64,000 nucleotides of DNA from Rhabdothermincola salaria (GTDB lineage: Bacteria; Actinomycetota; Acidimicrobiia; Acidimicrobiales; Acidimicrobilacustridaceae), in assembly GCF_021246445.1 (NCBI RefSeq), contig NZ_JAJQXW010000002.1:310001-374000 (forward strand), read 5' to 3'. The translations under genes and the position numbers were made by a program. Under the pieces are notes generated by a model. That model saw only the letters and a list, made by a program, of their open reading frames with translations. It had not been told where the DNA came from and ran no database searches. Below, in pieces: positions 3 through 34,308 of the stretch; positions within the stretch are counted from its first letter, which is position 1, and each line of letters opens with the position of its first letter.

Positions 3-752
3 GAGATCGACATCGAGATCGGTGGCGACGGACCCATCCCCCTCCCGGAGGGCGCCGTGATGGTGTCGATCCGGGAGTACTACCTCGACTGGCGAGAGGC
101 CGAGCCGGCCACCTTCACCATCGAGTGCCTCGACGACGACGCCGACCAACCCGCACCGCGCCGCACGCCCGGTGAGCTCGGCCCCCGCCTGGCCGAGGGC
201 GTCGACGGGGTCAGCCACTCGCTCGAGTACTGGAACACCTACATGCGCGACAAGGCCGCCGAGCGGCCGCGCAACACCTTCGGGCCGACCTTCGGCCTGG
301 CCAAGGGGCTCGACGCGGCCCGGTACGGCTTCTGCTTCTGGGAGCTCGGGCCCGACGACGCCCTCCTCGTCGAGATCGAAGCCCCGGTGGCCCGCTACTG
401 GAGCTTCCAGCTCTACGAGATGACCTGGTTCGAGCTCATCGACATCACCGAACGGCAGAGCTCGCTCAACCACGCGCAAGTGGCCGTCGACGGCGACGGC
501 CACGTGCGCCTGGTCGTGTCCCACACCGATCCGGGGGTGGCCAACTGGCTCGACGCCGGCGGTCGCGCCGGCGGACTGCTGTCGCTGCGCTGCTTCTGGG
601 CCACCTCCGCCCCCGACGCCCACGCCACGGTGATGCCGGTCGCCGAGGTGGTCGACCACCTCCCGCCGGGCACCGCGACCGTCGACGCCGCCACCCGGGC
701 CGAGACCATGCGGGCTCGACGCCGCCACCTGGCCTGGCGCTTCCGAACCTAG
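3..752 (+). CDS. DUF1214-domain protein, 5' end cut by window
   Basis: The reading frame is open to the left edge, so the N-terminus lies outside the window. An internal ATG at 57-62 is not needed as a start. The C-terminal 230 residues look like a DUF1214 domain: an aromatic-rich core (RYWSFQLYEMTWFELID) followed by a short polar stretch ending in SLNHAQ. The family is common in actinobacterial lipid and xenobiotic clusters, but its biochemical role is not established. The stop lies 7 bases before the SDR at 760, so the two are probably cotranscribed. Partial, so total length is unknown. Confidence 0.72.
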   Translation, partial: EIDIEIGGDGPIPLPEGAVMVSIREYYLDWREAEPATFTIECLDDDADQPAPRRTPGELGPRLAEGVDGVSHSLEYWNTYMRDKAAERPRNTFGPTFGLAKGLDAARYGFCFWELGPDDALLVEIEAPVARYWSFQLYEMTWFELIDITERQSSLNHAQVAVDGDGHVRLVVSHTDPGVANWLDAGGRAGGLLSLRCFWATSAPDAHATVMPVAEVVDHLPPGTATVDAATRAETMRARRRHLAWRFRT

Positions 753-25135: not shown

Positions 25136-26218
25136 TCAGGGACGGGCAGGAGCCGACCGGCCGGATGCCCTCCCGGTGAGCACGGTGAGCACCACCGTCA
25201 CCACGGGGACGACGAGGGCCGCCAGCGCCACCCCGAGCAGGGTGAAGCCCACCCGGTAGGCATCGGCGCTCAGCGCAGTGCCGGCATCGGAGTCGAACAG
25301 CACCACCGCCGGGGTGAGCAACGCCACGGCCCGCCAGTAATGGTGCGGGTCGGGATCGAGGAAGAGCAGCAGGCTCACGACCAGGCAGCCCATCCCCAGC
25401 AGGTGCTGCACCCCCTCCCACGGCACCACCAGGGCGACGACCATGGCGATCAGCGCCCCGCCGACCGTCCCCACGGCGCGCTGAGCGGCCTTGATCCGAA
25501 CGGCGCGACGAGGCTCCTCGGGCCGCGCCGACATGGCCAGCACGTACAGCGTGAGCAGGAGCCAGGCGGCCAGCGGCAACCGGTACCACTCGAGCACGAC
25601 GAAGGTCGCCGTCGCCGTCGTGACCGCGAGGGTCCCGGCCAGCACCGCCGCAGACGAACGTTCGAGGCCGGGAAGAGGGACGCTCCGGGGCAGCGCGCGG
25701 GCCGTGACCTGCGACGACCACAGACCGGCGAGCAGGCCGACCACCAGGTTGAGCAGCACCACCCCACCACCGGTCTGCACCACCCGAACCAGCTCGACCT
25801 TGTCGGCCGGATCGACGGGTACCGGAGCCACCACCACGAACCCGGTGGTGATGCCGACGATGGCGTACCCCCGCATCCGGCCGAGGCGGGCCGCCGGGTA
25901 GGAACCGGCGCCCACCACCGCGATCCAGGCCGCCGCGGCCCACGGGTGGGGGCTCAGCACGGTGGCGACCGACATCGACCCCACCCCGACCGCGACGAGG
26001 ACCGCCCCCCACCGGGGCCCTTCGGTCATGGTGGCCTGCACCCCGAGCAGGCAGGCCAGGGTCACGACCATGGCGTTGACCTCGGTGCCGGCGAAGCCGG
26101 CCACACCCACCGGCAGCAACGCCAGGAGCACCACCGCCACGACCTGGGGCACCGCCTTCAGGTACCTCACCGCCGGCGCCGGGCCCGCCGGGCCGGGACG
26201 GGGCTCGGCCGTCGTCAT
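25136..26218 (-). CDS. FUSC-like multi-pass membrane protein
   Basis: 360 aa with about ten hydrophobic helices arranged as two similar halves (VVAVVLLALLPVGVAG ... and LAVTTATATFVVLEW ...). The halves are joined by a short soluble linker, and there is a conserved basic segment RAVRIKAAQRAVGTVGGALI, the signature position of the FUSC/aromatic-acid-exporter (YccS/AaeB) family. The large cytoplasmic domains of full-length family members are missing. A role in export of aromatic acids or in envelope stress is inference from the family. Confidence 0.7.
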   Translation of the reverse strand: MTTAEPRPGPAGPAPAVRYLKAVPQVVAVVLLALLPVGVAGFAGTEVNAMVVTLACLLGVQATMTEGPRWGAVLVAVGVGSMSVATVLSPHPWAAAAWIAVVGAGSYPAARLGRMRGYAIVGITTGFVVVAPVPVDPADKVELVRVVQTGGGVVLLNLVVGLLAGLWSSQVTARALPRSVPLPGLERSSAAVLAGTLAVTTATATFVVLEWYRLPLAAWLLLTLYVLAMSARPEEPRRAVRIKAAQRAVGTVGGALIAMVVALVVPWEGVQHLLGMGCLVVSLLLFLDPDPHHYWRAVALLTPAVVLFDSDAGTALSADAYRVGFTLLGVALAALVVPVVTVVLTVLTGRASGRSAPARP

Positions 26219-27010: not shown

Positions 27011-27397
27011 TCAGCGGTTCTCGGGGAGCGGGAGCAAGATGGTGAACTCGTTGCCCTCCGGGTCGGCCATGCGGCGGTGGGAGTCGCCGTCGGGTTCCTC
27101 GATGACGGCCACCAGCCGGCCGCCGAGGTCCTCGATGCGGGCCTGGGCCACGTCCATGTCCTCGACCTCGATGTCGGGGCGCAGGCGCATCGCCCCCGGC
27201 TCGCCACCGGCGGGCAGCGGCTGGAAGGCCAGGTACACCCCGCCGCGGTCCCGCTCCAGCTGGATCCAGTCCTGCTCGACCTCGTAGACGCCGACCCCGA
27301 GGACCGCCTGCCAGAAGGTCGCCAGGCGCTCGGGGTCCTGGGCATCGACGACGACGGCACGGAGCCACCCGACGGCCTCGGTGGTGGGTTCGGTCAT
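27011..27397 (-). CDS. VOC-superfamily (glyoxalase-like) protein
   Basis: 128 aa, single VOC module: GWLRAVVVDAQDPERLATFW, a central strand pair with YLAFQPL and a C-terminal MADPEGNEFTILLP. Metal-ligand His residues are not at the usual first-strand position (AVVVDAQD), so it resembles the non-metal or binding-type VOC proteins often labelled bleomycin-resistance-like. Its start overlaps the stop of the upstream pseudo-hydrolase by 4 bases (ATGA). Function unknown. Confidence 0.8.
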   Translation of the reverse strand: MTEPTTEAVGWLRAVVVDAQDPERLATFWQAVLGVGVYEVEQDWIQLERDRGGVYLAFQPLPAGGEPGAMRLRPDIEVEDMDVAQARIEDLGGRLVAVIEEPDGDSHRRMADPEGNEFTILLPLPENR

Positions 27398-28647
27398 GGT
27401 CGGTCCTTTCGGTGGGGCGACGCCGCCGGGCCGGCCAGGCCCCGCCAGTCGTCGAGGAGGTCGAAGATGCGCTGGTTGCGCAGGCGTGGCGCGCCGATCT
27501 CGCAGTCGAGACCAGCGCCCTCGGCGGTGGAGAACGGCACGCGCACCGCCCGATCGCCGAGCCGGGTCGCCAGCTCGGCGGACTGCCCGGGGAAGCTCAT
27601 GGCGTCGTCGGGATCACAGATCAGGACCGGCCCTCGCAGGTCGTCGACCAGCAGCTCGAGGTCCCAACCGGCCAGACGATCGAGCACCTGCCCCGGACCG
27701 TGGGCCGGCCACTGCTCGACCACCTTGGCGACCGCGAACCGGGTGTCGGGATCGTCGGATGTCGCGTCGACGGCCGCGTCGAGCGCGGTCGCCCCACCAT
27801 CGGACCAGGCCCGCTGGAGCGGTTCGGGCAGCGCCCCCAGCACGCCGTCGAGCGGTCGCAGCACGCCGGGATCGGCGACCACCGCGGCCACCCTGGGGTC
27901 ACGGGCGGCGTGGCGGGCGGCGAGGTAGCCGCCGTCGGCGATCCCGGCGACGACCACGGCGCCGGGATCGACGTCGCGGTCGAGGACGGCGTCGAGGACC
28001 GCCGAGCCCACGCGTTCCCACTGGTCGACGGGGGCGAGGCCGTCGTCGACCACGGCCGCCCCCTGACCGGGTCCGTCGAAGGCGACGGCCTCCCACCCGC
28101 GCTCCACGGCATCGAGGACCCCGGTCATCACCACGTCGGACAGCGGCGAGGCGAGCCCGTTGTGCACGACCATGAGCGGCCGGCCCGAGCCGGTGGGGGG
28201 AGCAGGAGCGTCGCTCGAGGCCCGGAACCGCCAGGCCCGCAGGGCCCGACCCTCCCAGGGGACCTCCACCCGCTCGACCGGCGTGGCCCAGTGGTCGAAG
28301 GCCGCCTCGACGCAGGACCGATGGGCGCGCCACGCGGCGCGATGGCGGTCGGGACGGGCCGACGCCAGGACGTAGTAGAAGCCGGCGAAGCGATAGTTGG
28401 CCGCCCGCAGGTAGGCCTGCGCGGCGCTCTGGCGATGGCCGGCGGCGGACGCCTCGGCCGCGATGGCCTCGCACCGCTCGCCGAGCCCGGTCCACGCGGT
28501 GAACCAGGAATCGGGGTCACCGGGCACCACGGCCGCCGCCGTCGCCAGAACCTCGCCGGGCTCGGCCATGCCGTAGCCGATCCCCGTGAGGAGGCAGCGC
28601 ACGGCGAAGTCCATGCCGTCGTCGTCGGAGAACCGGATCGTGGCCAC
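27394..28647 (-). CDS. FrsA-like alpha/beta hydrolase homologue lacking Ser and His of the triad
   Basis: 417 aa. N-terminal helical domain (~120 aa), then an alpha/beta domain with the FrsA/dihydroxypseudooxynicotine-hydrolase hallmarks VVHNG, FDGPGQG and the late FPGQSAEL. The nucleophile elbow, GxSxGG in active members, reads GIADGG here (Ser to Ala). The C-terminal GAG(x)HC that normally supplies the catalytic His reads GAGLDC (His to Asp). Both changes together suggest a non-hydrolytic protein. GTG 28647 lies 8 bases after TACGAT. First gene of an operon with VOC and OMT. Confidence 0.78.
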   Translation of the reverse strand: MATIRFSDDDGMDFAVRCLLTGIGYGMAEPGEVLATAAAVVPGDPDSWFTAWTGLGERCEAIAAEASAAGHRQSAAQAYLRAANYRFAGFYYVLASARPDRHRAAWRAHRSCVEAAFDHWATPVERVEVPWEGRALRAWRFRASSDAPAPPTGSGRPLMVVHNGLASPLSDVVMTGVLDAVERGWEAVAFDGPGQGAAVVDDGLAPVDQWERVGSAVLDAVLDRDVDPGAVVVAGIADGGYLAARHAARDPRVAAVVADPGVLRPLDGVLGALPEPLQRAWSDGGATALDAAVDATSDDPDTRFAVAKVVEQWPAHGPGQVLDRLAGWDLELLVDDLRGPVLICDPDDAMSFPGQSAELATRLGDRAVRVPFSTAEGAGLDCEIGAPRLRNQRIFDLLDDWRGLAGPAASPHRKDRP

Positions 28648-28831: not shown

Positions 28832-29902
28832 GTGCTCGAGATCCTGAGCGAGCCGCCTCGGGACCCTCGGGACCCGTCGCTGTTCTCCTCCAACACGCTG
28901 TTCGGCGAACCAGGCATCTATCCGCAGGGCCCCCCGATGGCGCCCGCGCCGAAGCAGGCCCCGACCGAGGCCCACGCCCGAGAGGCGCTCGAGCGGGTCG
29001 TCGAGGAGCAGCTCCGAGGCCATGGGTCGGTGCCCGGCGCGGCCGGTGCCCTCGTCGATCGTCTCGAGGACCGCGACCTGGTCGGCCGCGTCCCCTCGCC
29101 CGGGCTGCGCGCCGCCGTGGTCCTGCTCGGCACGACCCTCGCGGGCAGCGTCCTCGACGCCTTCGCGGCCGGCCGGCAGGGACCGGCCCGCCTGACGGTG
29201 GAGCCCATGCCCGAGTCGGGTCGGATCATGGGTCCCCACCCCACCGGCGACCGCGCCACCCGAGCGCTCAACGACCGCTACGCCGGGGAGCACCCCGCGC
29301 TGGTGACCCCGTCGCTGGCCCACGACCTGCTCTGGAGCGGGCGCGGCACCTGCCAGGGCGAGGAGGTGGTGCTCCACGCCCTGCTGGCCATGGTCCACAT
29401 CCAGTTGATCGCCCGGTCGCCGTGGTTGGCCCACCTGGGCACCGAGCTCAGCCGGCGCCAGAACTCGCTGGCGGTGACCCTGCTCGACTCTCGCCGGCCC
29501 GGGTCGGCCAGCATCTCGGTCGTCGCCCCCGACGGACCGGGAACGATCCCCGGGGGCGCCCCGGGGATGCAGACCCCCGACTTCTGGAGCATCCCCTTCG
29601 TCGCTGGCCCACCCGAGGTGATCGACGCCCCGTCCGCCCTCGAGGGGGTGCTCGACGAGGTGACCGACGGCCAGCTGGCGCCGGCCCGTCCTCGGCGCTA
29701 CGACACCGACCTCGCAGAGGCGCTCTCGGTCCACCTCGGCCGGAGCTGGCTCTCGGCTCGCGAGCAGCTGAGGGCGAGCCTGGCGTTGGGCCTGCTCGAC
29801 GTCGACGACGTCGCCCGTCGACTGCGCCGATCGGTGGAGGACGCGGTGCGAACGCTGGAGCTCGACGACGTCGTCGAGTGCTGGACCCCGACACATCCGT
29901 GA
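28832..29902 (+). CDS. Hypothetical protein, family not recognised
   Basis: 356 aa from the first conventional start (GTG 28832). I cannot assign a family. It is soluble and Pro/Arg-rich at the N-terminus, with a conserved-looking middle (HPALVTPSLAHDLLWSGRG, then EVVLHALLAMVHIQLIA) and an RRQNSLAVTLLDSRRPG block, and a helical C-terminus of Arg-rich heptads. Third codon positions are strongly GC-rich, supporting real coding. The frame is open 22 codons further upstream to an ATC at 28766 that sits 6 bases after a TACCGT box. Its stop overlaps the MFS start (GTGA). Confidence 0.72.
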   Translation: MLEILSEPPRDPRDPSLFSSNTLFGEPGIYPQGPPMAPAPKQAPTEAHAREALERVVEEQLRGHGSVPGAAGALVDRLEDRDLVGRVPSPGLRAAVVLLGTTLAGSVLDAFAAGRQGPARLTVEPMPESGRIMGPHPTGDRATRALNDRYAGEHPALVTPSLAHDLLWSGRGTCQGEEVVLHALLAMVHIQLIARSPWLAHLGTELSRRQNSLAVTLLDSRRPGSASISVVAPDGPGTIPGGAPGMQTPDFWSIPFVAGPPEVIDAPSALEGVLDEVTDGQLAPARPRRYDTDLAEALSVHLGRSWLSAREQLRASLALGLLDVDDVARRLRRSVEDAVRTLELDDVVECWTPTHP

Positions 29903-31353
29903 GCGCGACGACGACCACGACGTCTGCGAGCCGCCGCAGCTGGTGGGTGCTGGCCGCCATGTGCGTGCCCCTGCTGACGCAGTCGCTCGACGTCAGCGGC
30001 ATCGGCCTGCTGTTGCCGAGCATCGGCACCGACCTCGATGCCAGCGCCACGGTGCTCGCCTGGGTGATGAACGCCAACGCCCTCGCCTTCGGGGCGATGC
30101 TGCTCACCTTCGGCACGCTGGCCGACCGGTTCGGCCCCCGCCGCCTGCTGCTCGCCGGCGTCGCCGGCTTCGGAGTGGCATCCCTCCTGTGCGGTGTGGC
30201 CACCGACAGCACCGTGCTCATCGCCGCCCGGGCGCTGCAGGGCCTGTCGTCGGCGGCGTGCTTCACCACGTCGCTGAGCGTGGTGATGGCGACCTTCGCC
30301 GAGGACCGGCGGCCCGCGGCCATCGGGATCTGGGGTGCGGTCAGCGGGGCCGGGAGCGCACTGGGGCCGCTGGTCGCAGGGGCGCTCACCACCGCCGTGG
30401 GGTGGCGGGCCTTCTTCTTCGTCAACGGCCCGATCTGCCTGCTCGCCCTGCCCGCCATCGCCGCCCTCGTCGGGTCCCGGGACCGCGAGCCCCGCACCTC
30501 GACCGCCCCCTTCCCCGCGGCCGGGCTGGCCGCGGTGGCCGTGGCGTTCGTCGGCATCAGCCTGGCCGCCAGCCGCGCCGGGGGCGGGTCGTGGCTCTCG
30601 GTCGCCACGCTGGTGCCCCTGGCCGCCGCCGGCGGCGCGGTCGCCTTCGTGGTCGCCCGAGGCCGCCGAGGGGCCCGGCCGGTCCTCGACCCCGCCGCCT
30701 TGGGAGCCCGGTGGTCCCGCAGCGCCTTGGCCGTCGCCTTCACCTCCACGTGGGGCTTCGGGGTCACGCTGGTGGTGGTCAGCGCCTACCTCCAACAGGT
30801 CCGCGGCCTCTCGGCCCTCGAGGCCGGCGTGACGTTCCTCGCCTTCAGCGGGGCGTTCGCCCTGGCCGGCACCGTGAACAGCCTCGCCGTGCGCCGACTC
30901 GGGGTGAGCACCACGCTCGTCGTGGCGATGCTGGGCTGCGCGGCCGGGTTCGCCCTGCTCACCACCATGGCCCCCGCCTCGGCCTTCCCCCTCGTGGTGG
31001 CGGGCCTGGTCGTCGGTGGCCTCGGACAGGGCCTGGCCTTCGCCGCGTCGACCACGGCGTCGCTGAGCGGCGTCCCCCAGGCGGCATCGGGGCAGGCCAC
31101 CGGCGCCACCCAGAGCACCCGCCTCCTCGGCAACGTGGTGGGCGTCGCCATCTCCACGGCCGTCCTCGTCGACCTCCAAGGCGGCGACGACACGCCCGCC
31201 GCCCTGGCCCGGGGTGACGGTGCAGCCATGGTCCTCGCGCTCGGCGTCTCGCTGGTGGGGGCCGCCCTCGTCCCCCTCGCGGTGCGCCGGCAGACTCCTT
31301 CCTCGGGCCCGACCGACGGCTCGGGCCTCGCTCCGGGGAGCATCGGGCCATGA
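29899..31353 (+). CDS. MFS transporter, DHA2-type drug/proton antiporter
   Basis: 484 aa, about 14 hydrophobic helices. The N-terminal helix 1 motif LLTQSLDVSGIGLLLPSIG, motif A as GTLADRFGPRRLLLAG and the later helix 5 antiporter region SGAGSALGPLVAG (motif C-like G-x8-G-x3-G-P) place it with DHA2 exporters. GTG 29899 overlaps the upstream stop by 4 bases; the longer upstream frame is an artefact. Its own stop overlaps the COQ4-family start (ATGA), giving a three-gene coupled unit. Substrate unknown. Confidence 0.88.
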   Translation: MSATTTTTSASRRSWWVLAAMCVPLLTQSLDVSGIGLLLPSIGTDLDASATVLAWVMNANALAFGAMLLTFGTLADRFGPRRLLLAGVAGFGVASLLCGVATDSTVLIAARALQGLSSAACFTTSLSVVMATFAEDRRPAAIGIWGAVSGAGSALGPLVAGALTTAVGWRAFFFVNGPICLLALPAIAALVGSRDREPRTSTAPFPAAGLAAVAVAFVGISLAASRAGGGSWLSVATLVPLAAAGGAVAFVVARGRRGARPVLDPAALGARWSRSALAVAFTSTWGFGVTLVVVSAYLQQVRGLSALEAGVTFLAFSGAFALAGTVNSLAVRRLGVSTTLVVAMLGCAAGFALLTTMAPASAFPLVVAGLVVGGLGQGLAFAASTTASLSGVPQAASGQATGATQSTRLLGNVVGVAISTAVLVDLQGGDDTPAALARGDGAAMVLALGVSLVGAALVPLAVRRQTPSSGPTDGSGLAPGSIGP

Positions 31354-32339
31354 GTACAGTCGGCCTCGTGATGCTCCCGCCTCCCGACGTGGCACGCGTG
31401 GCGATGGCGGCGGCCCTCGGGGCCTTCGAGCCGGTCGGCGGCCTCGACGAGCTCCAACAGGCGGTGTTCGACAACATCGCGGAACGGGTCTTCGGCCTCG
31501 ACCTCACCGAGCAGCCGCTCGCTCCGCTCCCTGCCGACGAGCTCCTCGCCCGGTCGCCCTCCGAGAGCCTCCGCCGCCAGATCGTGCACCTCACGGTGGT
31601 GCTCGAGCTGATCGAGCACCCGCTGTCCTCGGCGACCGCCCGCGCCGTCGAACACCACGCCCAGGCGCTCGACGTCGATCTGTCATTGCTGCGCGACGCG
31701 CGCGAGATGGCCGCGGGCCACGTCGCCCTCATGTACGCCGACCTCCAGCGCTCCAGCTGGTACACGGCCGAGACGATCCGCGAGTCGCTGCACGGGCGGC
31801 TCTGGGAGCTGATGCGCTCCAAGCTGGCCTACACCGGCATCGCACCCGACCGGACCATCGCCCGCAAGTGGGAGGCCCTGCGCGACCTGCCCGAGGGCAG
31901 CTGGGGTCGTGAGGTGGCCGCCTTCTACGAGCGCCACCACTTCCCCTTCCCTGGCGAGCGCCACGGCATCTACGAGATCGGCGCCCGGCACGACTTCGTG
32001 CACGTCCTCACCGGCTACGACGCCACCCCCGAGGGCGAGCTCGACGTCTTCGCCTTCATCGCCAGCTGCATGCCCGACGAACGGGGTCTGGTGCTGTTGG
32101 CGGTCACGCTCGGCATCTTCCAGAACGACGCCATCCACCGGGTGGCCGGCAAGAAGGTGACGATGGCCCGCACCGACACGCTGGCCCAGCCCGGGGCGGC
32201 CGCCCGTTGGGCCGAGGCCATGCAGCGCGGTGCGCGCTGCACCGTCGACGTCATGGGCGGCATCGACCACTTCGCGCTGGCGCCGCTCCCTCTCGACGAG
32301 GTGCGGCGCCGCTTCGGTGTGACCACGAACCCCGGCTGA
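31350..32339 (+). CDS. COQ4-family protein with intact HDxxHx11E zinc motif
   Basis: 329 aa. The C-terminal half carries the COQ4 hallmark HDxxH-x11-E as His214-Asp215, His218 and Glu230 in RHDFVHVLTGYDATPEGE, preceded by RYHxFPG-like FYERHHFPFPGE. In eukaryotes and proteobacteria COQ4 acts in ubiquinone head-group modification (recently linked to C1 decarboxylation/hydroxylation). Actinobacteria are expected to make menaquinone, so the substrate here is open. ATG 31350 overlaps the MFS stop. However, TACAGT (31355-31360) lies 7 bases before GTG 31368, which may be an internal leaderless start 18 bases in. Confidence 0.82.
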   Translation: MSTVGLVMLPPPDVARVAMAAALGAFEPVGGLDELQQAVFDNIAERVFGLDLTEQPLAPLPADELLARSPSESLRRQIVHLTVVLELIEHPLSSATARAVEHHAQALDVDLSLLRDAREMAAGHVALMYADLQRSSWYTAETIRESLHGRLWELMRSKLAYTGIAPDRTIARKWEALRDLPEGSWGREVAAFYERHHFPFPGERHGIYEIGARHDFVHVLTGYDATPEGELDVFAFIASCMPDERGLVLLAVTLGIFQNDAIHRVAGKKVTMARTDTLAQPGAAARWAEAMQRGARCTVDVMGGIDHFALAPLPLDEVRRRFGVTTNPG

Positions 32340-32413: not shown

Positions 32414-32791
32414 ATGGCGGCGACCTCCCCCCGAACCGTCTCGCGACGTGCGGTCCTGCGCGGCACGGCCACGGGCGCGGTGCTCCTCGCGGCCACGCCC
32501 GCCCTGCCGCTCCTCGCCGGCTGCGGCAGCCTCGGGTTCGGCACCGACACCGATCCCCTCCGCACCCTCGGCGCCTCGTTGCGCGACGGGCCCGAAGGGC
32601 CTCGCCTCGCCGCCTCGGGCCTGCCCGGCGTCGCCCGACCCATCACCGACGAGGCGACGCTGTTCGAGGTGCTCGACCTCGTCGACGACCGGGTGGACGC
32701 CGACTTCGCCGCCGGCCGCACGGTGCTCGGCGACGGTTGGCTCCTGGCCGACACCGAGGCCATCGCCCTCGTCGCCTACGCGAGGAGCTGA
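32414..32791 (+). CDS. Tat-exported lipoprotein, putative small subunit of GMC dehydrogenase
   Basis: 125 aa. The N-terminus has a twin-arginine signal (SRRAVLRG) running into a hydrophobic stretch and a lipobox LLAGC near residue 37. The mature part is short and mostly helical, ending LADTEAIALVAYARS. It directly precedes a GMC oxidoreductase that has no signal of its own. In FAD glucose and related dehydrogenases a small Tat subunit carries the catalytic subunit across the membrane. Order, size and signal match that arrangement, but the family (gluconate-dehydrogenase subunit 3 type) is inferred. Confidence 0.75.
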   Translation: MAATSPRTVSRRAVLRGTATGAVLLAATPALPLLAGCGSLGFGTDTDPLRTLGASLRDGPEGPRLAASGLPGVARPITDEATLFEVLDLVDDRVDADFAAGRTVLGDGWLLADTEAIALVAYARS

Positions 32792-32796
32792 CCGAG

Positions 32797-34308
32797 GTGC
32801 TGCGCCACGCCGACGACATCGAAGAGGGCGCCGCCCTCACCGCCGACGTGTGCATCATCGGCTCCGGTCCGGCCGGGCTCACCGTGGCCGCCGAGCTGGT
32901 GGGCTCGGGGCTGTCGGTGCTCGTGCTCGAGTCCGGCGGCGAGCAGTGGGACCCCCGCACCCAGGCCCTGGCCGAGGGCCGCGTGTCCGGCGAGGGGTTC
33001 CGCTTCAACAGCACGGAGGTGACGCCGGACCTCGTACGCCTGCGCCAGTTCGGTGGTTCCAGCAACCACTGGACCGGCATGTGCCGTCCCTTCGACCCCC
33101 ACGACTTCGAGGTGAGGGCGGCTGTCGACGGCTCGGGCTGGCCGTTCGGCGCCGAGACCCTCGCCCCCCACTACGTCCGTGCCGCCGCCAGCTGCGACCT
33201 GGCGACCGACGTCTTCGACGCCGGCTGGTGGCGAGACCAGGCCGCGGCCACCCTCTTGGCCGACGGCCATCCGGTGCGCACCACCGTGTTCCAGTTCAGC
33301 CCGCCCACCCGCTTCGGCACCAAGCTCCGCCCGCTCCTGGACGCGGACGAGAGCACCCAGGTCGTCCTGTGGGCCAACGTCACCTCCATCGACACCGACC
33401 CCGGCGGCACGCGGGTCGACCGTCTCCAGGTGGCCACGCTCTCCGGGCGGCGATTCCAGGTCTCGGCCGGGCGCTACGTGCTGGCTGTCGGGGGGATCGA
33501 GGCCCCCCGTCTCCTGCTGGCCAGCACGGCCAGCGCGCCGAGCGGCGTCGGCAACAGCAACGACCTGGTGGGTCGTCACTTCATGGAGCACCCCCACCAC
33601 CCGTCCGGTCGCATCCTCTTCGCTCAGCCGAGGGAGGCCTGGGACTTCTACACGATCGGTCAGAGCACCCTGGCCGACGGCCGGACGGTCAGTCGTTGGG
33701 CCGGACTGGGCCTGTCGGCGCAGGCTCAGGCCGAGGCCGGCATCGCCAACGCCAGCGTGCAGCTCTACCCCGGCCTCGAGGGCGGCGATCTGCGCGGCGA
33801 CCGGGACCGGGAGACCATGGCGATGAGAGGGATCGGCCGCCTCCTCGCCCGGGGGTCGAGTGAACCCCCCCTCGGGGTGCTGTCGGTTCGTACCGAACAG
33901 GTGCCCGATCCCGACAACCGCGTCACCCTCGGTCGCCGGCTCGACGAGCTCGGCCTGCCCGAGCCGGTCATCGAATGGCACCTCAACCCCGAGGACCGCA
34001 CCACCCTGCGCGCCACCATCCGCCTGGTGGGCGAGCACCTCGCCGCCACCGGGGCCGCCCGCGTGGAGCTCGACCCGAGCGGCAGCCCGGTGGAGGACTG
34101 GCCGACCGAGATCGGGAACCACCACATGGGCACGACCCGCATGCACGTCGATCCGAACCGCGGGGTCGTGGACGAGAACTGCCGCATGCACGAGGTCGAG
34201 AACCTCTACGTCGCCGGCAGCGCGGTGTTCCCCACCTCCGGGATGGCGAACCCCACCCTCACCCTCGTCGCCCTCGCCCACCGCCTGGCCGACCACCTCC
34301 GCACCTGA
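32797..34308 (+). CDS. GMC-family FAD oxidoreductase (sugar/alcohol dehydrogenase type)
   Basis: 503 aa. FAD Rossmann motif CIIGSGPAGLTVAAEL near the N-terminus, GMC signature region RQFGGSSNHWTGMCRPFD, and the C-terminal active-site block IGNHHMGTTRMH with catalytic His, then GMANPTLTLVALAHRL. This is the layout of membrane-associated gluconate/fructose/glucose 2- or 1-dehydrogenase large subunits. No N-terminal signal is present. GTG 32797 is 9 bases after GAGGAG; a CTG overlapping the upstream stop is less likely. Electron acceptor probably quinone or cytochrome, none encoded nearby. Confidence 0.87.
   Translation: MLRHADDIEEGAALTADVCIIGSGPAGLTVAAELVGSGLSVLVLESGGEQWDPRTQALAEGRVSGEGFRFNSTEVTPDLVRLRQFGGSSNHWTGMCRPFDPHDFEVRAAVDGSGWPFGAETLAPHYVRAAASCDLATDVFDAGWWRDQAAATLLADGHPVRTTVFQFSPPTRFGTKLRPLLDADESTQVVLWANVTSIDTDPGGTRVDRLQVATLSGRRFQVSAGRYVLAVGGIEAPRLLLASTASAPSGVGNSNDLVGRHFMEHPHHPSGRILFAQPREAWDFYTIGQSTLADGRTVSRWAGLGLSAQAQAEAGIANASVQLYPGLEGGDLRGDRDRETMAMRGIGRLLARGSSEPPLGVLSVRTEQVPDPDNRVTLGRRLDELGLPEPVIEWHLNPEDRTTLRATIRLVGEHLAATGAARVELDPSGSPVEDWPTEIGNHHMGTTRMHVDPNRGVVDENCRMHEVENLYVAGSAVFPTSGMANPTLTLVALAHRLADHLRT

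Follow-up and report, generated by a model that had tools for sequence, protein, structure and literature searches.

COQ4 is known from ubiquinone synthesis, and its own reaction has been assigned only recently. According to PMC7615680, a reconstructed tetrapod-ancestor COQ4 is a Zn-dependent C1 decarboxylase whose activity is abolished by EDTA, as opposed to the oxidative decarboxylation reported by others and described in PMC12938788. The metal motif of the COQ4 superfamily is defined in PMC9774615 as HDxxH-x10-13-E, and solved homologues include 6e12 (Alr8543) and 3msq. Coq4 is also mentioned in or near biosynthetic clusters by PMC10783134 and by PMC9712229, according to the second of which it is not needed for disorazol. 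Here we describe a COQ4-like open reading frame (ORF) from Rhabdothermincola salaria, located in a window of 64,000 nucleotides, that is, the whole stretch of DNA analysed (contig NZ_JAJQXW010000002.1, positions 310,001 to 374,000). We found that its product, though divergent, is a genuine homologue of COQ4 and carries an additional TerB-like region at its N terminus. COQ4-like genes of this close type recur in a cassette together with genes for a VOC protein and an MFS pump, often with one for an undescribed protein (UNK) and sometimes with one for an Ayg1-like hydrolase. The COQ4-like protein apparently works outside ubiquinone synthesis.

The preliminary description of this DNA had placed the protein in the COQ4 family on the strength of its metal motif. 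HDxxH-x11-E is indeed exact and occurs once (residues 214-230, with His214, Asp215, His218 and Glu230), in agreement with the superfamily definition. As the same pattern arises in 420 of 200,000 shuffles of the protein, the motif by itself is weak and the COQ4 claim rests on homology. Searched singly, the protein scores 17.5 bits (E 0.0027) against Pfam Coq4 (PF05019), short of the gathering cut-off of 22.9, has no match in an NCBIfam scan and finds 6e12 as its best PDB chain at E 0.024. A profile of 20 relatives (alignment A1, consisting of the window protein and those 19 of the other 65 places from the whole-protein search that were given loci) matches the solved COQ4 homologues 3msq (E 3.7e-9) and 6e12 (E 2.5e-8), and 14 of its 20 members match Pfam Coq4 at E <= 0.1, the best at 2.1e-6. 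The four motif residues are invariant in all 20 members. HDxxH-x11-E is likewise present in 51 of 51 members of a wider alignment (A2, the window and 50 of 80 loci, with L026 excluded for an internal stop and the other 29 by eye for size or as near copies), in which only the Glu is independent evidence because HDxxH was part of the search pattern. An LP-x-G-[ST]-x-G block precedes the metal motif, as in COQ4. The third-position G+C content of the ORF is 0.94.

The AlphaFold model of the protein is confident, with a predicted local distance difference test (pLDDT) of 89.7 and a predicted template-modelling score (pTM) of 0.90. Structure prediction had been named as a check on the family assignment, and it bears the assignment out: the two COQ4 homologues are the best PDB matches of the model, ranked first by Foldseek (6e12, E 5.8e-4, probability 1.00; 3msq, E 2.6e-2) with template-modelling scores of 0.33-0.50 (0.34 and 0.49 for 6e12 itself). 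VIA-align gave Z 11.4 for 6e12 (root-mean-square deviation (rmsd) 5.3, 171 residues aligned, range 102-326) and Z 10.3 for 3msq (rmsd 5.3, 172 aligned), values that stand out from the next ones, 7.4 and then 4.1; for a helical model a Z below about 13 is weak on its own, and here it agrees with the profile match. Because of these structural alignments the residues from about 102 onwards are regarded as the COQ4-like domain. The family assignment therefore stands as far as homology by profile and predicted fold is concerned, but the protein is not a standard COQ4, given its score below the Pfam cut-off and about 100 extra N-terminal residues. It shares with COQ4 the metal motif, the preceding block and the fold of residues 102-326, whereas the N-terminal region, the recurrent partner genes and a genome without a Coq4 or UbiG match over cut-off set it apart.

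The N-terminal stretch of about 100 residues looks TerB-like, judging from profile and model comparisons. In VIA-align the COQ4-like model matches 2h5n, a TerB-like structure that itself matches the TerB profile at E 0.0011, with Z 7.4, rmsd 3.7 and 111 residues aligned, although the aligned model range (6..249) extends beyond the N-terminal region. Aligned by hhalign with TerB proteins (8 of the 12 loci from a TerB search), residues 1-118 gave a probability of 78 and E 1.8e-5 over 52 columns. We use the term TerB-like for the region and stop short of TerB itself, since Pfam scans of the window protein and of its A1 relatives yielded no TerB match. Compared with the tellurite-resistance family TerB, the region thus aligns by profile and by structure but lacks the Pfam match and is fused to a COQ4-like domain. 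A TerB search of the genome itself found none; other tellurite genes were not searched for. Among distant relatives, a TehB-like methyltransferase gene adjoins some COQ4-like genes (2 of 28 neighbours scanned) in Halieaceae loci, including L088:4461-5024, an observation whose significance alongside the TerB-like region is uncertain.

Regarding the gene context, the preliminary description had noted coupling to an MFS exporter and an unknown protein. Both 4-base overlaps are real, one between the UNK and MFS genes and the other, at 31350-31353, between the MFS and COQ4-like genes. The context is larger than this, however, as a VOC/glyoxalase-like gene and an opposite-strand hydrolase gene recur too. 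In the 19 closest loci (L021-L039) we found the VOC/Glyoxalase_6 gene 16 times, the MFS gene 15 times (33-56 percent identity) and the UNK gene 10 times; 15 of the 16 VOC loci and the window make up the VOC alignment (A5). Since the MFS family is large, an MFS match alone is weak evidence, and it is the adjacency to the other cassette genes that counts. The best NCBIfam matches of the MFS protein are LfrA, EmrB and TcmA, all below their cut-offs. Gene order and strand are shuffled among the loci: in L023 and L031 the VOC gene is followed by the COQ4-like gene on one strand with the MFS gene facing them, and in L024 the order UNK-MFS-COQ4-like is the same as in the window. In L021 and L036 the gaps may be due to short contigs, and in L036 and L037 the side on which close relatives carry UNK is cut short. 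In other cases, for example UNK in L023 and L031 and MFS in L025, L028 and L037, the flank is long enough, so these genes are absent or too diverged. L022 and L026 come from the same genome; L026:8001-8987 is its second close-type copy, which is interrupted by a stop and still has VOC, MFS and UNK matches alongside.

Table 1. Coding features of the COQ4-like locus, in window positions.
Feature	Position	Strand	Basis
VOC / Glyoxalase_6 protein, 128 aa	27011..27397	-	Pfam Glyoxalase_6 E 3.5e-23
Alpha/beta hydrolase, occasional cassette member	27394..28647	-	4-base overlap with VOC gene
UNK, 356 aa, undescribed; model weakly zincin-like	28832..29902	+	No family match; in 10 of 19 loci
MFS_1 transporter, similar to drug-efflux members of the MFS	29899..31353	+	Pfam MFS_1 E 1.2e-50
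COQ4-like protein, 329 aa	31350..32339	+	ATG start; profile of 20 relatives, predicted model
TerB-like helical region at the N terminus, roughly residues 1-110	31350..31679	+	2h5n structure match, TerB hhalign
COQ4-like domain, about residues 102-326	31653..32327	+	Range aligned to 6e12_B
Codons of putative metal site HDxxH-x11-E (residues 214-230)	31989..32039	+	Motif match; four residues invariant in A1

The association of UNK with the close-type COQ4-like gene was also followed across genomes. The close type was defined by at least 43 percent identity over at least 250 residues, which excludes short or broken matches (e.g. G649 with 42 percent over 156 residues and stops). Among 99 near genomes UNK is present in three (G000, G023 and G076), each time within about 1.5 kb of a close-type gene. 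In 397 genomes of the order UNK was found in six and the close-type gene in eight, five genomes having both (hypergeometric P 4e-9, a value that is inflated by shared ancestry); up to five candidates were scored per genome, several genomes are identical to named loci and the UNK profile was itself built from cassette loci. In three of the five (G000, G076 and G657) the two genes share a contig and are no more than about 2 kb apart. In the sixth UNK genome (G552) the end of the contig truncates UNK, and VOC and MFS genes are adjacent to it.

UNK itself matches no family at E <= 1 in NCBIfam and Pfam scans, and when 11 members were scanned against Pfam the best hit was HTH_Crp_2 at E 0.19, in one member. 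In the alignment of the window protein with 10 loci (A3) invariant residues include His164, Glu177, Glu178, His182 and His189. The UNK model has a pLDDT of 82.1 and no Foldseek match at E <= 0.001. Its two best VIA-align rows, 8s5f (Z 6.8, rmsd 4.1, 156 aligned) and 22ob (Z 5.4, rmsd 4.5, 156 aligned), have Z values that can arise by chance; both structures match the HExxH oxygenase family by sequence. Several lower rows (Z <= 3.2) are presumably metallopeptidases. Compared with the alpha-ketoglutarate-dependent HExxH peptide hydroxylases (ChlB domain, SjiH), which supply the two best structural matches, UNK has invariant His and Glu residues but no conserved HExxH: His164 is invariant in 11 of 11 members, while the following Glu and second His vary (HDLLW in the window, HALCH in L033, HELLA in L029). 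A profile-profile comparison of UNK with these hydroxylases (alignment A4, 7 of the 11 places found) gave a probability of 0.6 percent and E 0.09 over 18 columns covering the HExxH helix. The motif and this comparison kept us from accepting UNK as a proven HExxH hydroxylase, and a zincin-like fold, suggested by the model, is a lead, not a finding.

The hydrolase has homologues in L027 and L032 only, among the 80 loci searched. Its PDB relatives are 3fnb (E 1.3e-9), 8qd1 (Ayg1, E 2.9e-9) and 2jbw (E 6.4e-9), with AntI reaching only E 0.0082, and two of these three best relatives act on aromatic ketones or pigments. It thus resembles the Ayg1 / 2,6-dihydroxypseudooxynicotine hydrolase group in sequence and differs from it at the expected nucleophile, which is replaced in the window copy. 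The catalytic Ser of such hydrolases is expected in GxSxG; the window protein has Ala at this position (GIADGG), compared with GVSHGG in L027 and GINHGS in L032.

The expectation that this actinobacterium uses menaquinone is supported by the genome search, in which MenA and MenB both exceed their cut-offs (416 bits for MenB); the futalosine route (MqnA/D) gave no match. An Acidimicrobiia paper (PMC12263773) lists menaquinones of MK-9 types for all seven strains compared. Four UbiA-type genes pass the Pfam cut-off: MenA, heme O synthase, decaprenyl-phosphate phosphoribosyltransferase and one more (L104) that reaches no equivalog cut-off. UbiG is not found over cut-off, with 16 weaker matches, and a Pfam Coq4 search of the genome gave 0 matches at E <= 0.001. 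The earlier remark that no other ubiquinone genes are visible is supported as regards UbiG. We consider a ubiquinone pathway in this genome unlikely, as neither UbiG nor Coq4 is over cut-off; UbiD, UbiX, UbiH and COQ7 were not searched. L104 adjoins L109, the best sub-threshold UbiG-like match, on C2 near 560-562 kb.

COQ4-like relatives (E <= 0.001) are present in 33 of 99 near genomes, our own included, and missing from 66, and in the order they are present in 43 of 397 genomes, so that presence of the gene is sporadic. In the phylum the Pfam Coq4 model matches in 4 of 396 sampled genomes, in three of them over cut-off, and two of the four places (G058 and G007) belong to the wider COQ4-like family. 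The COQ4-like pattern search gave 156 loci, of which 80 were kept. By title, 34 of the 80 are Acidimicrobi-, Ilumatobacter or Microthrixaceae and 16 Nocardia, in line with the actinobacterial context first proposed, and 30 are others. The phylogeny of COQ4 homologues, also put forward earlier as a check, places the close type in a cluster around the window in a tree of 52 rows. There the cassette label, assigned by locus number (L021-L039) and not from observed partners, needs 2 changes against 14.6 in shuffles; the root is unsure, the sole standard Coq4 row being on a very long branch. Three of the loci (L035, L036 and L038) are metagenome-assembled genome records titled Bifidobacterium breve, titles that look wrong, and in the tree the COQ4-like gene of L035 is nearly identical to that of IMCC26207 (L034). 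Distant-type genes occur as tandem pairs in G016:C46 and G027:C9, and G014 and G031 have six COQ4-like matches each, some of them fragments.

No shared partner set was found for the distant relatives (L040-L100). Starting from 305 ORFs that passed a codon-composition filter we retained 35 same-strand neighbours and scanned 28, which fall into diverse families; the commonest are VOC and TehB-like methyltransferase, with 2 of 28 each. A different VOC gene lies just upstream in L046, and the second VOC match is probably in L047.

Our preferred reading, plausible to us and still short of probable, is that a divergent TerB-COQ4 homologue acts outside ubiquinone synthesis in a menaquinone-making bacterium, as a metal-dependent enzyme with an aromatic, hydrophobic substrate and a product that leaves the cell by export. 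The HDxxH-x11-E site would bind a divalent metal and, in keeping with the proposal made for COQ4, orient a hydrophobic molecule that is phenolic or carboxylated. By analogy with COQ4 the substrate would be a hydrophobic aromatic acid, which the protein would decarboxylate, perhaps by an oxidative route. Further steps on the same molecule may fall to the VOC protein, to UNK and in some loci to the hydrolase, and the MFS pump would export the product. Decarboxylation or hydroxylation of another aromatic substrate, the activity suggested at the outset, is a reasonable guess. A number of observations weigh against this proposal. UNK is missing from 9 of the 19 closest loci, and of these all but L021, which does not reach far enough to judge, have at least 3 kb on one side; the distant relatives lack the cassette, with UNK in 0 of 61 loci; and no UNK match was found in three of the eight close-type genomes of the order (G014, G041 and G460). 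UNK and the COQ4-like gene are on different contigs in G686 and G699, the copy adjoining UNK in G076 has an internal stop, with the intact copy on another contig, and the co-occurrence value is inflated as mentioned above. The best PDB match of the hydrolase (3fnb) is named an acylaminoacyl peptidase, and the loss of the expected Ser in the window copy points in the same direction. Finally, a scan of 17 neighbouring ORFs found no core biosynthetic enzyme (polyketide synthase, non-ribosomal peptide synthetase or prenyltransferase).

The cassette may either make a metabolite or remove a foreign one. In the latter case the COQ4-like enzyme, the VOC protein and the hydrolase would alter a foreign aromatic compound or antibiotic that the pump expels. 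We consider such a detoxification or resistance role unlikely, if a serious contender: the VOC and drug-efflux-like MFS family names, the missing biosynthetic core enzyme and the sporadic presence of the COQ4-like gene are consistent with it, but the families matched by the MFS and VOC proteins are broad ones, and no NCBIfam cut-off is reached. It could also draw on a FUSC_2 (fusaric-acid-resistance-like) gene on the minus strand (25136-26218, E 1.1e-8), about 0.8 kb beyond the VOC gene, which does not recur beside other COQ4-like relatives in the 80 loci. Less likely still is a scaffold role without catalysis, in which the protein would bind a lipid or prenyl compound and present a hydrophobic substrate to partner enzymes, its metal site being structural. 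The COQ4 homologue 6e12 was crystallised with oleic acid, as such a role would have it, yet the complete metal motif is kept throughout A1 and the reconstructed animal COQ4 has Zn-dependent decarboxylase activity according to PMC7615680.

A more far-reaching reading, which seems to us improbable, is that the locus represents a new class of small-molecule cassette in the Acidimicrobiia and their relatives. UNK would then be a zincin-like oxygenase akin to the HExxH hydroxylases and, together with the TerB-COQ4 enzyme and the VOC protein, would make an undescribed aromatic metabolite for export by the efflux pump. Least credible is a role of the COQ4-like protein in respiratory quinone synthesis, at a menaquinone or ubiquinone-like step, which we regard as very improbable. 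COQ4 homology, the presence of MenA and MenB and the further UbiA-type gene (L104) could be cited for it, but two thirds of the near genomes (66 of 99) have no relative, MK-9 types are listed for all seven strains compared in the Acidimicrobiia paper, and one of the cassette genes probably encodes an efflux pump.

Directly downstream of the COQ4-like gene (32414-34308) lie a small protein with a twin-arginine translocation (Tat) signal and a lipobox-like sequence, both recognised by eye, and after it a GMC oxidoreductase; they were rejected as cassette members, since neither found a match among the other 80 loci at a threshold of E <= 1e-8. There is little room in the window for a precursor gene of a ribosomally synthesised and post-translationally modified peptide, given the overlapping genes, 184 bases before UNK and 74 bases after the COQ4-like gene, although no systematic precursor search was made.

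In the literature on COQ4 with actinobacteria, with its family and homologues, with biosynthetic gene clusters and with bacterial menaquinone, the titles, beginnings of abstracts and some passages give no account of this family or cassette. The COQ4 family itself is known; new here is the recurrent gene context of a divergent COQ4-like gene, and this context hints at a pathway in which a small molecule is modified and pumped out of the cell. UNK, a hitherto undescribed protein family associated with the COQ4-like gene, also comes to light here, and annotating such COQ4-like genes as ubiquinone biosynthesis proteins could mislead. If the locus were a new class of small-molecule cassette, COQ4 chemistry would be a general bacterial tool and not specific to ubiquinone. 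With the reaction of COQ4 itself so recently assigned, and with reports of plain Zn-dependent versus oxidative decarboxylation, a COQ4 relative that seemingly has no ubiquinone pathway around it and keeps recurrent partners offers a simpler setting for asking what the HDxxH-x11-E site can do.

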